Of a stretch of DNA of 64,000 nucleotides, positions 13,435 to 31,764 are shown piece after piece (the first letter of the stretch is position 1; each line of letters starts with the position of its first letter). The translations under genes and the position numbers were made by a program. Source of the stretch: Bdellovibrio bacteriovorus (GTDB lineage: Bacteria > Bdellovibrionota > Bdellovibrionia > Bdellovibrionales > Bdellovibrionaceae); assembly GCF_002208115.1 (NCBI RefSeq), contig NZ_CP020946.1, forward strand, positions 62,001 through 126,000, read 5' to 3'. Below the pieces are notes generated by a model. The model ran no database searches, had not been told where the DNA came from, and saw only the letters and a program-made list of their open reading frames with translations.

Positions 13435-15840
13435 TTAGGCCGCAAGCGATTTGGTCTTTTTCGGATCTTTCTTCGCGGCAGGCTTTTTCTCCTGACCTTT
13501 TGCCGACTTGTCGAAGGCAACTGCGAAGACTTCGTCCAGATTTTCTGCAAGGATGAAGTTGATCTTATCCTTGAACACCTTAGGGATATCAGCAAGATCC
13601 TTTTGGCAAGCCATCGGGATGATGATGTTTGTAATACCCAGGTTCAAAGCGGCAAGACACTTCTCACGGATACCACCGACCGGCAGTACACGTCCTTGCA
13701 AGGTCACTTCACCAGTCATCGCGATATCGTGACGAACCGGAGTGCCTGTCATCAAACTCACAAGAGCGGTCGTGAGAGTGATACCTGCAGATGGACCGTC
13801 TTTCGGGATCGCACCGGCTGGCAAGTGCACATGCACATCGTACTTTTCAAAGAAGTCCTCTGGGATACCCAGTTCTTCCTGGTGAGCACGAGCGTAAGAC
13901 ATTGCTGCGTGAGCGGACTCTTTCATCACGTCGCCAAGCTGGCCCGTCAATGCAAGATGTCCTTTACCTTTCATTTTCAAAGCTTCGATAGTGAGAACTT
14001 CACCACCCGCTTGTGTCCAGGCAAGACCCTGAACCACGCCCACCTGAGAATCCGCGATCTTGTCATCACGCTGGAATCTTGGAGGACCCAGAAGCTCCGG
14101 AACGGTTGTTGCGTTTACTTCAACAAAGTTCGTTTCTTCCATCACCACCATCTTAGCCACTTTACGGCAGACGGAACCCACTTCACGCTCCAGGTTACGA
14201 AGACCCGCTTCGCGAGTGTAGCCTGCGATCAGGTATTTGATACCTTCGTCAGTGAACTTGATGTTTTCCTCAGTGATACCGTTGGCTTCGATCTGTCTGC
14301 GGATCAAGTGTTTCTTCGTGATCAACAGCTTGTCATTCTCGGTGTAACCAGGAATGTTCAGGATCTCCATACGGTCACGCAAAGCTGGTGGAATATTTTC
14401 CAACACGTTGGCTGTTGCGATGAACAACACATTTGAAAGGTCGAAGTCGACATTCAGATAGTTGTCACGGAAAGTGGCGTTTTGTTCCGGATCCAGCACT
14501 TCCAGCATTGCTGCAGAAGGGTCACCACGGAAGTCAGAACCCAATTTGTCAATTTCATCCAGTACGATCACTGGATTGCTTGTTTTAGCCTGACGAAGAG
14601 CCTGGATGATTTTACCCGGCATCGCGCCCACATAAGTGCGGCGGTGACCACGGATTTCCGCTTCATCCTTCACGCCGCCCAGAGCGATACGGAAGTATTC
14701 ACGGCCCATCGCACGAGCGATGGATTTACCCAGGGATGTTTTACCCACACCCGGAGGACCGCCGAAGCACAGGATTGGTCCTTTCAGGTTTGGTTTCAGC
14801 TTGCGAACCGCCAGGAATTCCATGATGCGGTCTTTGGCTTTTTCCAGTTCATAGTGATCTTCGTCCAGAATTTCTTTGGAACGTTTCAGGTCAATATGAT
14901 CTTCAGATTTCTTGCTCCAAGGAAGATCCGCCATCCAGTCAAGGTATGTGCGAACCATTGTGGCTTCAGATGCATCCGGGTGCATACGCTCCAGACGGCC
15001 CAGTTGTTTCAGGGCTTCTGCTTCCACATGAGGAGGCATGCCGGCGTTCACCAGCTTTTCGCGCAACTCATCCATTTCCTCTGATTTGGAGTCGCCTTCT
15101 CCAAGCTCATTCTTTATAGCCTTCATCTGCTCACGCAGGAAGTATTCGCGCTGGGACTTGGACATGTCGTCCTTGGCGCCTGTGCGATTTTTGGATTGTG
15201 TCTGCATCACTTCAAGTTCAGCAGCCAGAATCTCGTTAACCAGTTTCAGTCTTTCTGTAGCATCAGAAGTTTCCAGAACCTTCTGTGCGTCCTGAACTTT
15301 GATGCCCAGGTTGGAAGCGATAAGGTCAGCAATACGGCCTGGATCAGAAACATCATCCAGAACCAGCAGGATGTCCGGAGAAAGAGGACGGCCCAAAGCG
15401 ATGATGCGCTCGATGTGCTCTTTCGCGGTTCTGATCAAAGCTTCGTTTTCAACAACGGTTTTTTGAACCGGTGTTTCCTCGATCTTTTCAACAGCCACTT
15501 CAAAGGAAGGGGAGGTCTTGGTGAAATTTTTCACGCGGCCTTTAGCGACACCTTGGATAAGGATTTTCACGCGGCCGTCGGAAAGTTTTCTCATTCTCAT
15601 GATCATCGCCACTGTACCAACAGTGTAGATGTTGTCTGGAGATGGATTTTCTTCAGTGATGTCTTTCTGGGAAGCCAGGAAGATCAGGCGATTTTTTGCC
15701 AAAGCTTCTTCAACTGAGCGGATCGAAGCGTCTCTGCCTACGAACAAAGGAATGATCATGTAGGGGAATACTACGATGTCTCTCACAGGTAGCATGGGAA
15801 GGGTCTGTGGGATTTCTAGGACTTTATCGTCAAAACTCAT
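13435..15840 (-). CDS. lon: ATP-dependent Lon protease
   Basis: 801 residues, full length for bacterial LonA. An N-terminal substrate-binding domain (about 10-200) and coiled-coil region lead into an AAA+ module with Walker A GPPGVGKTS (361-369) and Walker B VIVLDEID (424-431). The C-terminal protease domain has Ser684 in DGPSAG and Lys727 in GIREKC, the Ser-Lys dyad. It degrades misfolded and regulatory proteins in the cytosol. The start has a strong GGAGGAG site. A terminator separates it from the upstream dksA-like gene, so it probably has its own promoter in 15841-15934, where a 6-bp inverted repeat (15901-15917) lies. The end of a grpE-dnaJ-dksA stress block. Confidence 0.97.
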   Translation of the reverse strand: MSFDDKVLEIPQTLPMLPVRDIVVFPYMIIPLFVGRDASIRSVEEALAKNRLIFLASQKDITEENPSPDNIYTVGTVAMIMRMRKLSDGRVKILIQGVAKGRVKNFTKTSPSFEVAVEKIEETPVQKTVVENEALIRTAKEHIERIIALGRPLSPDILLVLDDVSDPGRIADLIASNLGIKVQDAQKVLETSDATERLKLVNEILAAELEVMQTQSKNRTGAKDDMSKSQREYFLREQMKAIKNELGEGDSKSEEMDELREKLVNAGMPPHVEAEALKQLGRLERMHPDASEATMVRTYLDWMADLPWSKKSEDHIDLKRSKEILDEDHYELEKAKDRIMEFLAVRKLKPNLKGPILCFGGPPGVGKTSLGKSIARAMGREYFRIALGGVKDEAEIRGHRRTYVGAMPGKIIQALRQAKTSNPVIVLDEIDKLGSDFRGDPSAAMLEVLDPEQNATFRDNYLNVDFDLSNVLFIATANVLENIPPALRDRMEILNIPGYTENDKLLITKKHLIRRQIEANGITEENIKFTDEGIKYLIAGYTREAGLRNLEREVGSVCRKVAKMVVMEETNFVEVNATTVPELLGPPRFQRDDKIADSQVGVVQGLAWTQAGGEVLTIEALKMKGKGHLALTGQLGDVMKESAHAAMSYARAHQEELGIPEDFFEKYDVHVHLPAGAIPKDGPSAGITLTTALVSLMTGTPVRHDIAMTGEVTLQGRVLPVGGIREKCLAALNLGITNIIIPMACQKDLADIPKVFKDKINFILAENLDEVFAVAFDKSAKGQEKKPAAKKDPKKTKSLAA

Positions 15841-15900
15841 ACCGCTCCTCCGCGTGATGCGGGAATTTATGTTTCTGGTATGAGTCTTCTCGGTGTGAGA

Positions 15901-15993: not shown

Positions 15994-16374
15994 TTATTGG
16001 AAGAGGCCAGTCTGGCTTTCTTGTTCTTCCATGCAGTCAATACAAAGGGCTGTGAAAGGTCGTGCCTGCAGACGGCGAGCATTGATAATTTCAGTGCAGG
16101 ATTCGCACTGGCCGTAGGTCCCGTCAGCGATCTTTCCCAAAGCTCTTTCGATCGCGTACAAAGCGGTACGGTCACGTTCGTGCAAGTGAATAGAGATATT
16201 GTTGGAGATATCCTGAGAAGCGGCTTCCGCTTCATCCGCAACCGCAGCCATGCTGGATTGTTCCTCTTTAAATTCATGTGATTTATTGAGGATCGTGCTC
16301 TTTTGGAAGAGCAGGGATTCTTTTAGATTTTGCAGTTCAGTTTCAGTCAACTCTGTGAGTTCGGTTGCGTTCAT
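15994..16374 (-). CDS. DksA/TraR-type zinc-finger protein
   Basis: 126 residues with an acidic helical N-terminus and the four zinc cysteines C90/C93 and C111/C114 (CESC, CIDC) of the DksA C4 finger. DksA family proteins enter the secondary channel of RNA polymerase and, often with ppGpp, retune promoter choice. The protein is shorter than E. coli DksA (151 residues) and its coiled coil is compact. It is preceded by a second DksA-like gene on the same strand 92 bp away and followed by a terminator. Which promoters it controls cannot be told. Confidence 0.85.
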   Translation of the reverse strand: MNATELTELTETELQNLKESLLFQKSTILNKSHEFKEEQSSMAAVADEAEAASQDISNNISIHLHERDRTALYAIERALGKIADGTYGQCESCTEIINARRLQARPFTALCIDCMEEQESQTGLFQ

Positions 16375-16466
16375 CTCACCCCCCGATATGATGATCCTTG
16401 GCCGAAAATTGATCGCATATTACGGGGGAATGATTATCTGTCACTAAAAATGCACAGCGTGATTAT

Positions 16467-16838
16467 TTATCGCGCAAACTTACGACTTACCGCTTCTCGC
16501 ATCTCGGCACCCTCGATGGACAAGCGAGTCCACGGAATTGCCAGCAACCTTTCAGATTCGATAAGTTCCTCGGTCTCTTCGCAGATTCCGAATGTGCCTT
16601 GCTCGATGCGAGCCAGGGCCATCTCGATCTCGACCAGTTGATTTCTCATGCGTGCTTGGGATATCAAAAAAGAATGTTCTTCGATGTGGGCGACAGATTG
16701 ATCTGCTTCGTCACCGCCACGCTCCGCATGGACCAGTTCGCGCTGGGCTGTTCTGAAACGATTCAAAACATCCTGTTTCGCGGTAAGAAGTTTTCTTCTG
16801 CACTCCATCACTAAGTTTTCAGAGATACGACTTGTCAT
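16467..16838 (-). CDS. DksA-like protein lacking the zinc cysteines
   Basis: 123 residues aligning over its length with DksA/TraR: helical hairpin, then FGICEETEE...ERLLAIP...LSIEGAE in place of the zinc finger. Only Cys86 remains; the other three zinc positions read Thr89, Ser107 and Gly110. Cysteine-poor DksA variants that fold without zinc are known in other bacteria (for example P. aeruginosa DksA2). The adjacent four-Cys paralogue suggests a zinc-replete/zinc-poor or division-of-labour pair. Its ribosome-binding site is embedded in a strong long-range stem. Confidence 0.8.
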   Translation of the reverse strand: MTSRISENLVMECRRKLLTAKQDVLNRFRTAQRELVHAERGGDEADQSVAHIEEHSFLISQARMRNQLVEIEMALARIEQGTFGICEETEELIESERLLAIPWTRLSIEGAEMREAVSRKFAR

Positions 16839-16841
16839 AAC

Positions 16842-16914
16842 AACCCCCTTCTAAAGATTTGCGACTCTCTTGGTCGCTGGTGTTCCTAAGACAGGGCACC
16901 ACAAGAAGGGGGTT
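16842..16914 (-). promoter_or_regulatory. Predicted three-way-junction leader sequestering the ribosome-binding site
   Basis: Reading on the minus strand, an 11-bp perfect stem pairs 16904-16914 with 16842-16852; the latter contains the AAGGGGG Shine-Dalgarno 5-9 nt before the ATG at 16838. Inside are two hairpins: GCGAC/GTCGC (16861-16877) and TGGTG/CACCA with an inner CCT/AGG pair (16878-16901). The layout resembles a riboswitch or RNA thermometer that hides the start site. No known family matched. Confidence 0.5.
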
Positions 16915-16945
16915 AAAAAATCGTCATTAAATTAACTTATAGCTG

Positions 16946-18616
16946 CTATTTGCGGACTTTAAGGGGAATTACTTCGCCTTTTTCAATAGTTAGAGCGGTC
17001 ACCGGGCGCTCAATTTCGCGCTCAGCATTAATACTGAGGCTTCCTAGCGATCCAGGGAACTTGTTGAGCTGGCCTAGCTTCTGCACCAATTCCTCGCGGG
17101 AGCTGGCTCCGGCGGCAATCAACTGACGCAGAATAAGACCCGCATCATAGGCCTGAATTTCAATCAATGAAGGTGGTTCATTGTAAAGGCTGCGGTATTC
17201 GTTCACGAAACGTGAGCGGTCCTGATTCGCTGGAGTCATGCTGTCCACAAACACCAGATTCTGCGCAAAGTTGCCGGCACGTTTGGCGATGTCTTTGGTG
17301 TTCCAAAGATTGGTGCCCAGAAGTTTCACACCACGCACGTCATTGTAAGACAGCATCGCTGAGATCTGTCCCATGGCGCGGGCCGAGTCGGGGATAAAGA
17401 TCGCATCAAAGTCGGTGATGGGTGGCAGCACATTTTCAAGATTGCTCTGACGAACTGAGTGTTTCTTGCCGGAGCTTTGCAGTTCTTTTAAACGCATGTT
17501 GAACTCATCCTGACGGGCCTCACCGAAGTAAGTTCCCACCAGACGCTGCACAACCAGGCGGAAGTCTGTCTCTTTTACAGAGTAAGTCTGAACAGCGGTG
17601 ATCTCGCCTCCACGGGCCAGCACCTCATCCCAGAAGATGTTGGTGAATTCGATGCCATAGGGATCGTTCGGGTAAAGCACCGCGAACTTTTTCATGCCCA
17701 TGTCTTCCATCGCCGTGCGAACCAGCGCGCGCACCTGCATGCCGCTGGTCAGAGAATTTCTGAACACGGTCGGGCCCACTTCCGTCAAACCGGAACGCTG
17801 GGAAAGGGCAATGGTCGGCACACCCAGTTCATCGGACTTCGCCGCCACAGCCGGAGCCGTCTTGGAAAGCAAGCTTCCCACGATGGCGATAACGTTGTCT
17901 TCTTTCACCAGACGCTCGACTCCGCGGCGGGCGGAGTCAGGATTGCCTTCACTGTCCATCACGGCCAATTGGAAGCCCGAGCCGGGGATATGAAGGCCCA
18001 GGCCCATTTCAAGGCCCCGCAGCGCACGCTGGCCCACAGGGGCGTTACGGCCACTCAGTGGCAGCACCACGCCCACGGTCTGGGACTTTACGTTCTTGGC
18101 GGAATCAAGCTGCAGTATGATCTCCTGGGCTCTCAGTGCCAGATCGCTGCCCGGAACAAACTCCGTCACAGAATTAAAATACATTTTTGCATCGGAGGTG
18201 TCTTTTTTATCCAGGGAAATTTCCCCCAGGCGGAACATCGCATGCCCGCGCAGGAATCCAAAGTCGGATTCATCCGCCACGTCCTCAAGCTGATCTTCGT
18301 TCAATTTGTTTTCAACGATGTCGATTGCTTTAAGGCGGTAAGATTCCTGATCTGCTTTGCTGGGTGCTTGCACGGCCTGATTTACGAGGGACTTGAGTTG
18401 TCCCAGCACATCGGCGGTTGGAGTGGCAGGCACGCTCAAGGTTTCACTTTCAATCTGCTCTGGCGGTTTTCCGGTGGTCAGACCGCCGACGGCTTTTGGT
18501 TTTTTACCCGCAGCGGCCGTCGTTGCGGCCGGTTTCATCGGGGTGCGTTTCGTAGCTACTGTCGTACAGGAAGCCAGAAGGCCGGCCGTCAGCAAGAGTG
18601 AAAAGTAGAGTTTCAT
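16946..18616 (-). CDS. LppC/LpoA-like lipoprotein with periplasmic-binding fold
   Basis: 556 residues. Signal peptide with lipobox LLASC (Cys17). After a Lys/Ala/Thr linker and a helical TPR-like stretch (about 70-165) comes a Peripla_BP_6-type domain starting [11 protein letters not shown] near residue 176, as in branched-chain amino acid binding proteins. This N-terminal helical plus C-terminal binding-fold arrangement is that of LpoA (YraM/LppC), an outer-membrane activator of peptidoglycan synthase PBP1A. Orthology is suggested, not proven; a solute-receptor role is the alternative. Its ATG overlaps the dnaJ stop (ATGA), so the two are translationally coupled. Confidence 0.75.
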
Positions 18617-30195: not shown

Positions 30196-31764
30196 CTACA
30201 GAGGGATGTTTCCGTGCTTTTTAGCCGGAGTAACGTCACGTTTATGTTTCAGCATTTCCAAAGAGTCGATGATGCGTTTACGAGTCATCGCTGGCTCAAT
30301 AACCTCATCTGTGTAGCCCAGTTCAGCGGAGACGTATGGATTGCTGAACTTGGCTTCGTATTCTGCCGTCAGGCGCGCGCGCTCGGCCACAGGGTCTTTG
30401 GCTTTGTTGATCTCTTCACGGAAGATGATGCTGACCGCACCATCAGCGCCCATAACCGCGATTTCTGCAGACGGGTAAGCCAGGTTCACGTCAGAGCGAA
30501 GAAGTTTCGAGCCCATAACGATGTAAGCACCGCCGTAAGCTTTGCGGGTGATAACGGTGATTTTTGGCACCGTCGCCTCGGCATAAGCATAAAGAAGCTT
30601 CGCACCGTGAGTGATGATGCCATTCCATTCCTGGTCTTTACCCGGCAGGAAGCCTGGTACGTCCACGAAGGAAACAACCGGGATGTTGAAGGCGTCACAG
30701 AAGCGGATGAAACGAGCACCTTTGCGGGACGCTTCGATGTTCAGGCAGCCAGCAAGGATGTTGGGCTGATTCGCCACGATACCCACAGGACGGCCGTTGA
30801 AGCGTGCAAAGCCCACGATCAGATTCTGAGCGAAGTGTTTGTGCACTTCCAGGAAGTAACCCTCATCCACGCACTCTGTGATGACAGAGATCATGTCGTA
30901 AGGTTTCTTTGGATTTTCCGGGATCAAAGAATTCAAAGCTTCAGTCAAACGGTCCGGACGGTCGTTGGTTGGAAGAACCGGAGCATCGTCAAGATTGTTG
31001 GATGGAAGGAAGTTCATCATCTCGCGGATCAGAAGCAAGCAGTGCTTGTCATCTTCAGCAGCAAAGTGAGCCACGCCGGATTTTGCAGAGTGAGTGGTCG
31101 CTCCACCCAGTTCTTCCTTGGTCACATCTTCGTGAGTCACAGTCTTGATAACATCAGGACCGGTCACGAACATGTAAGAGGTGTTTTTCACCATGAAGAC
31201 AAAGTCCGTGATGGACGGGGAGTAAACCGCACCACCCGCGCACGGGCCCATGATAGCGGTGATCTGTGGGATCAAACCGGAAGCCATGGTGTTTCTGGTG
31301 AAGATGTCCGCGTAACCACCCAGGGATTCAATACCTTCCTGGATACGCGCGCCACCAGAGTCATTGATAGAGATAAAAGGAGCCCCGTTTTTCATCGCCA
31401 GATCCATCACTTTGCAGATCTTGTTGGCTTGAGTGCGGGACATGGATCCACCGATCACGGTGAAATCCTGAGAAGACAAATAAACCAGTTTGCCGTTGAT
31501 ACGGCCGTAACCCGTGATGACACCATCACCAGGAACCACGTTTTTATCCATGCCGAAGTTTGTGCAACGGTGAGAAACAAAACGATCCATTTCAACAAAG
31601 CTGCCTGGATCCAGCAAAACATCCACGCGCTCGCGTGCAGTCAGACGACCACCTTGTTTGTGTTTCGCCAAACGAGCTGCGCCACCACCGGCCATTGCGG
31701 CTTCGTTTCTTTTCTCAAGATCTGCCAATCGTGCTTGAATGCCAGATGAAACTTCTGTGCTCAT
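30196..31764 (-). CDS. Acyl-CoA (propionyl-CoA-type) carboxylase beta subunit
   Basis: 522 residues from the ATG at 31764, which has AAGGA upstream; a longer frame adds a poorly supported leader. It has the crotonase-like N and C carboxyltransferase halves with [28 protein letters not shown] and IVANQP, as in PccB/AccD5-type subunits. It moves the carboxyl from biotin to propionyl-CoA or a related acyl-CoA, feeding methylmalonyl-CoA and succinyl-CoA. It heads a three-gene operon and suits a predator oxidising prey odd-chain lipids and amino acids (inference). Confidence 0.9.

Follow-up and report, generated by a model that had tools for sequence, protein, structure and literature searches.

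The window, that is, the whole 64,000-nucleotide stretch of Bdellovibrio bacteriovorus DNA that was analysed, carries genes in the order dnaJ-lppC-dksA1-dksA2-lon on the same strand. The gene 5′ of dksA1, lppC (positions 16946 to 18616, minus strand), codes for an LppC-like lipoprotein with a periplasmic-binding-protein fold, and its stop codon stands 33 nt before a TAACC sequence. dksA1 itself (16467 to 16838, minus strand; ATG at 16838 to 16836) is followed by dksA2 (15994 to 16374, minus strand), a C4 zinc-finger DksA paralogue with the Pfam domain zf-dskA_traR, and by the lon protease gene (13435 to 15840, minus strand). A gene for a radical-SAM/HemN-type protein (assigned by Pfam) also lies upstream of dksA1. 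The first-pass annotation had placed dksA1 in a stress cluster, and the cluster members, GrpE, DnaJ, the LppC-like lipoprotein, two DksA paralogues, and Lon, confirm this setting.

By its predicted fold and its C-terminal motif, the dksA1 product (123 residues) belongs to the DksA/TraR family. It scores above the cut-off of PF01258 (zf-dskA_traR) in Pfam and, with 52 bits, below the cut-off of 115.5 for the NCBIfam dksA equivalog. The closest solved structure in a PDB search is 4ijj, a DksA/TraR-family protein (E = 2.7e-7), which we take to be DksA2 of Pseudomonas aeruginosa, a zinc-independent DksA; further matches are 2kq9 and 6ptg. The zinc motif of DksA1 is reduced to CxxT...SxxG (CEET...SIEG) and retains one of the four cysteines. 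The same single-cysteine state is seen in the aligned DksA1 orthologues and in a Bd3519-like paralogue; the dksA2 product keeps all four. Together with the match to 4ijj, the lost cysteines agree with the earlier description of DksA1 as a zinc-less DksA paralogue. According to PMC2797640, Bd3519 is a starvation-linked dksA that drops on exit from the attack phase. Judged by its position, Bd3519 is taken to be the other paralogue, with 62 to 63% identity. A sharing of the dksA1 leader with this Bd3519-like, likewise zinc-less paralogue was considered and rejected: the leader of that paralogue shows no match, and its Shine-Dalgarno (SD) sequence is less occluded.

The leader of dksA1 sits on the minus strand between lppC and dksA1. 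In the transcript, AACCCCCUUCU (16914 to 16904) pairs perfectly with AGAAGGGGGUU (16852 to 16842), which carries the dksA1 SD, GAAGGGGG; the corresponding plus-strand letters are AACCCCCTTCT (16842 to 16852) and AGAAGGGGGTT (16904 to 16914). The resulting helix, P1, in which the 5′ arm acts as the anti-SD strand, consists of 11 perfect Watson-Crick pairs and one extra U-G pair. In the MFE structure of the minus strand, P1 closes a three-way junction that encloses two hairpins, P2 (16879 to 16900) and P3 (16861 to 16877; GCGAC...GUCGC). An 11-bp perfect stem over the ribosome-binding site with two hairpins inside it had been read from the sequence before, and both parts were recovered, with the coordinates of the stem exact. 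The fold has a z of −5.28 for the plus-strand piece and −3.65 for a 130-nt minus-strand piece, and none of 200 shuffles was as stable in either case. Among the 53 predicted ORF leaders of the window, that of dksA1 has the third lowest z, and its energy is the lowest among the 12 lowest-z leaders listed; the pairing probability of its SD hexamer is 1.00. Opening this SD is calculated to cost 16.8 kcal/mol at 37 °C, compared to 3 to 5 kcal/mol for lppC, dnaJ, and grpE, whose SD hexamers were chosen by rule.

An SD occluded beside heat-shock genes is typical of the ROSE and fourU thermometers, and indeed chaperone and Lon genes adjoin dksA1. However, opening the SD still requires 15.3 kcal/mol at 45 °C, and temperature alone cannot open it in the model. 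The SD accessibility of the window leader is 0.00 up to 70 °C, including the range of 25 to 45 °C in which a thermometer would be expected to open, and nine genus leaders among the 14 that were profiled change by no more than about 0.1. Unlike ROSE and fourU, the dksA1 leader is much too stable for melting at physiological temperatures, and it has no match in Rfam. Since the SD is shut at every modelled temperature, we regard temperature as an unlikely opener of P1. With an SD that stays shut to 65 to 70 °C in the model, the thermometer that the first-pass annotation had offered as one reading is very improbable.

The leader is conserved within the genus. In 23 genus leaders (L003 to L025), the dksA1 orthologue has lppC upstream and dksA2 and lon downstream; in the 24th genome of the genus, G004, the copy is divergent (L116), and the stretch retrieved contains no lppC match. 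All 23 leaders have a paired SD region (P = 0.75 to 1.0), with a median fold z of −4.4, and the proposal of a geometry for translational control, with the SD hidden in P1, thus holds throughout. P1 shifts in register and sequence among the leaders (for example, in L016, L017, and the clade L020/L021/L024/L025) while the SD stays paired, and 88.8% of the P1 cells are paired across the 23 sequences. A loss of the stem in related strains had been named as an observation that would speak against it; P1 pairing is kept within the genus. The spacing from TAACC to ATG is 76 to 79 nt in 20 of the 23 leaders. Covariance models R1 and R2 matched 21 and 22 of the 24 genus genomes, respectively, at E ≤ 0.1, each at the dksA1 leader, and one genus genome had an additional weak R2 match. 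According to these models, the leader is present in one copy per genome, always before dksA1, and with little variation in its distance from the start codon. The genome under study has a single copy as well; a second match, of 22 bases, is no more than expected by chance. Furthermore, the 18-base motif, allowed up to two mismatches, occurred elsewhere in the genus genomes about as often as its reversed control; with one copy in its own genome and this background, a repeat or mobile element was rejected. One product of the analysis is a working covariance model for a leader restricted to the genus.

Outside the genus, R2 was run against 140 genomes of the order and matched G035 (g13), the row of which was part of the R2 training alignment, and two further sites with E = 0.02 to 0.1. 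These weak matches, G088:C18:2925-2969 (minus strand) and G059:C7:155908-155984 (plus strand), are taken as chance; that in G059 lies on a different contig from the dksA1 match of the same genome. At 33 loci, R2 gave weak matches ending at the dksA1 ATG in L129, L090, L016, and L120 (E = 0.019 to 0.35) and off-target matches in L133 and L089. Syntenic leaders from other genera retain UAACC at their 5′ edge and often a GUC(U/C/G)-type element such as GUCUUA. The predicted fold of L030, L114 (g2), and L027 (g13) is a three-way junction in which P1 holds the SD and the P2 loop shows GUC; judged by complementarity, GUCUUA can instead pair with UAAGAC beside the SD in L120, L127, L129, L146, and L153. 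Of 27 distant syntenic leaders, only 2 hid the SD better than 95% of composition-matched shuffles did. Because so few distant leaders beat the shuffles, our structural claim is limited to the genus and, more weakly, to g2 and g13. A search for viral relatives found none.

How much of the pairing is due to base composition has a bearing on whether the leader is a regulated element at all. A C-rich leader opposite a G-rich SD pairs readily by chance: in composition-matched shuffles with the SD fixed, mean pairing was 0.85, and only 9 of the 23 genus leaders exceeded 95% of such shuffles in SD hiding. The part of the SD pairing that composition accounts for is in line with a stem that is not regulated, be it a GC-rich processing or stability hairpin or a chance pairing of the G-rich SD with a C-rich spacer. 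In CM-fitted alignments, which lean towards their own structure, 12 to 13 of 24 pairs had double changes, and none of 500 column shuffles reached any of five measures; the structure-fitted alignment had 12 double-change pairs versus 5.7 in shuffles. With a phylogenetic null (tree-based simulation with transition bias; 300 simulations), the double-change pairs of P1 in the fitted alignment were reached in 2 and its percentage paired in 10 of 300 simulations, and the percentage paired of P3 was reached in none. P2 as modelled (68.9% of the cells of the helix paired) showed no covariation, as 144 of 300 null simulations on the fitted alignment reached the observed percentage paired. On the sequence-only alignment, P1 was not significant (149/300 for percentage paired and 74/300 for double-change pairs), and in the subset alignment A2 the structure was not distinct from shuffles. 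Native P1 arms paired better than arms exchanged among species (fraction of permutations, 0.005), in a test that, like the shuffle tests, ignores relatedness. The covariance check suggested by the first-pass annotation is therefore answered only in part: P1 and P3 covary on the structure-fitted alignment, but P1 falls within the phylogenetic null on the sequence-only alignment. In sum, P1 is retained, with moderate covariation support; P3 has good support on the fitted alignment, and P2 is best described as a stem of variable sequence that displays a conserved loop. The failure of P1 on the sequence-only alignment and the fading of conservation beyond the genus would both fit a non-regulatory stem. 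However, such a stem leaves unexplained a fold z of about −4.4 across 23 leaders, the constant geometry, the conserved loop, the covarying P3, and the conserved SD-hiding leaders of dksA2 and lon, and we consider it improbable.

The most conserved internal sequence is that in the apical loop of P2, GUCUUAGGAAC (16882 to 16892, minus strand; genus consensus GUCUWAGGAAC), which by its conservation is a candidate recognition element; in addition, UUAACC is conserved at the 5′ edge. A conserved junction core, which the first-pass annotation had named as a sign of support, was not found: the junction nucleotides vary, and the P2 loop and UUAACC are conserved instead. A conserved apical loop (GUCUWA) near a locked SD is also a feature of protein-binding autoregulatory leaders, such as those of ribosomal proteins and of CsrA targets. 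Unlike in CsrA targets, GGA is not kept across the dksA1 leaders, and a CsrA site was rejected since GGA is lost in L007, L008, L016, L017, L023, and others.

Part of the loop may also pair in a competing helix, in which CCCUGUCUUAGGA (16884 to 16896) is bound by the 3′ strand UCUUUAGAAGGGG (16844 to 16859, minus strand). RNAalifold favoured the core of this helix (CCC-G-UCU-W-AGGA with UCYU-AA-AGA-A-GGGG) on the sequence-only alignment, and the pairing of its AGGA/UCYU part is kept beyond the phylogenetic null (5/300). The helix is weaker than P1, and it is 7 to 28 kcal/mol weaker than the free fold in the 13 of 23 sequences listed; the arm-swap test gave no signal (0.50). With the arm-swap null and the weaker energy, the competing helix was rejected as the main fold and treated as secondary. 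Furthermore, it covers the SD as well and, hence, offers no ON state; no fold that frees the SD was found among the 13 of 23 sequences listed.

These observations bear on whether the leader might be a translational riboswitch for a small molecule, of a class not described so far, in which P2, P3, and the junction would form the aptamer. By its fold, the genus leaders, and the opening cost, the SD is hidden where a riboswitch has its expression-platform stem. Three-way-junction riboswitches of the TPP and purine type that sequester the SD are likewise built from a stem that closes over two hairpins, and their regulatory pairing includes the SD. Rfam 15, searched at the gathering threshold over the whole window, has no match, and none was obtained at that threshold for six relatives of the leader; at a permissive threshold, the best score in 16700 to 17050 (351 bases) was 15.5 bits against a cut-off of 52. 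This is in agreement with the earlier statement that the leader resembles no known class and, along with the SD-sequestering junction, the conserved element, and the single regulated gene, it is what an undescribed riboswitch would show. However, the dksA1 leader differs from TPP and purine-type riboswitches in having neither a conserved junction core nor an Rfam match, and the variable junction residues and the failure to find an alternative SD-freeing fold speak against this reading. The element also lies before one gene only, and shared targets thus suggest no ligand. We judge a riboswitch to be improbable, about as much so as a non-regulatory stem.

A further possibility is suggested by the sequence between lppC and P1. 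A conserved block, TATAAG...TTTAATG...TTTTTTAACC, extends from 16941 to 16911 (minus strand) between the lppC stop and P1, and an AT-rich inverted repeat, CATAA...TTTATG, stands before UAACC also at a locus where the end of lppC is a long way off (L114). The block could act as a promoter or form a weak hairpin; promoter scoring gave no sigma-70-like promoter at the leader. An intrinsic terminator or attenuator is not supported, as no terminator-like site was found in 16700 to 17100 and there is no U run 3′ of P1. A tiny in-frame ORF (ATG ACG ATT TTT TAA; 16913 to 16927, minus strand) ends at the edge of P1 in 20 of the 23 genus leaders. It has no SD and is probably not translated; it was rejected as a true leader peptide since, besides lacking an SD, it is missing in 3 of the 23 leaders and absent from most other genera.

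The main rival to a lock opened by an effector is translational coupling, in which P1 would be a passive lock within an lppC-dksA1 operon and ribosomes finishing lppC, or reinitiating on the tiny ORF with its stop at UUAACC, would cover the 5′ arm. The genes from dnaJ to lon do lie on the same strand, and, as in intercistronic coupling stems, the genus leaders have the SD locked by an upstream strand near the stop of the previous gene or of a tiny ORF. In 20 of the 23 genus leaders, exactly 33 nt separate the lppC stop from TAACC, and an in-frame ORF of 4 to 5 codons spans the gap in 20 of the 23; the stop is 0 to 12 nt before TAACC in L023, L027, L082, L089, L090, L126, L136, L146, and L148. 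However, the distance from stop to stem varies outside the genus, unlike in coupling stems: the lppC stop is 45 to 282 nt away in L030, L114, L115, L124, L127, L134, L083, and others, although UAACC is still at the start of the leader, and L084 has no TAACC in range. The absence of an SD from the tiny ORF and its loss in three genus leaders weaken the reinitiation variant, and coupling leaves the conserved GUCUWAGGAAC of the loop unexplained, an element that coupling stems do not have. In our view, coupling is possible but rather unlikely.

In our model, to which we give about an even chance, the dksA1 leader would be a genus-conserved, cis-acting translational lock that is opened by a putative factor or ligand. 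The mRNA would be transcribed from upstream of 16914, and translation of dksA1 would be off by default, with the SD held in P1. A factor, be it a protein, a small RNA, or a small molecule, might then read GUCUWAGGAAC in P2 and, in certain states of stress or of the life cycle, open P1. Should the lock be real, an RNA-polymerase regulator of the DksA type in a predatory bacterium would be controlled at the level of translation by an uncatalogued RNA fold. According to PMC3627812, Bdellovibrio has a global switch between attack and growth forms, and the transcription start sites of strain HD100 have been mapped. Were the lock real, control of a second DksA after transcription would add a layer to this switching. 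A search of openly available literature found no paper on such a dksA leader or on thermometers or SD-hiding leaders in Bdellovibrio, although absence is not proven by this.

The leaders of the two genes downstream also hide their start sites. In the dksA2 leader (about 16375 to 16436, minus strand), CCCCCGUAAUAUG and CAUAUCGGGGGG form a hairpin over the SD (CCCCCG...CGGGGG); it is conserved in the 22 genus leaders checked, with a mean of 0.94 for pairing of the SD. In the lon leader (about 15829 to 15900, minus strand), CUCAUACC pairs with GGUAUGAG over the AUG and CCCGC pairs with GCGGAGG over the SD; it is highly conserved, with means of 0.93 for pairing of the AUG and 0.75 for the SD in 22 genus leaders, and Rfam has no match for it. 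The lon leader resembles a thermometer in shape, but its computed SD opening cost falls only from 7.6 kcal/mol at 37 °C to 6.5 kcal/mol at 45 °C. Taken together, the predicted structures of the dksA1, dksA2, and lon leaders support a putative stress module that would be gated at translation. It is imaginable that they make up a new regulatory RNA class, each gene having its own start-site-hiding leader and dksA1 being freed by a trans-acting factor that recognises the hairpin with GUCUWAGGAAC; this wider reading is tentative and, like coupling, rather unlikely. If it were true, the stringent-response and proteolysis regulators of a predator would be gated at translation.

With a fold z of −4.5, the lon leader has the lowest value of the 53 leaders in the window. 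The second lowest (−3.9) belongs to the leader of a carboxyl-transferase-domain gene at 30196 to 31764 (minus strand).
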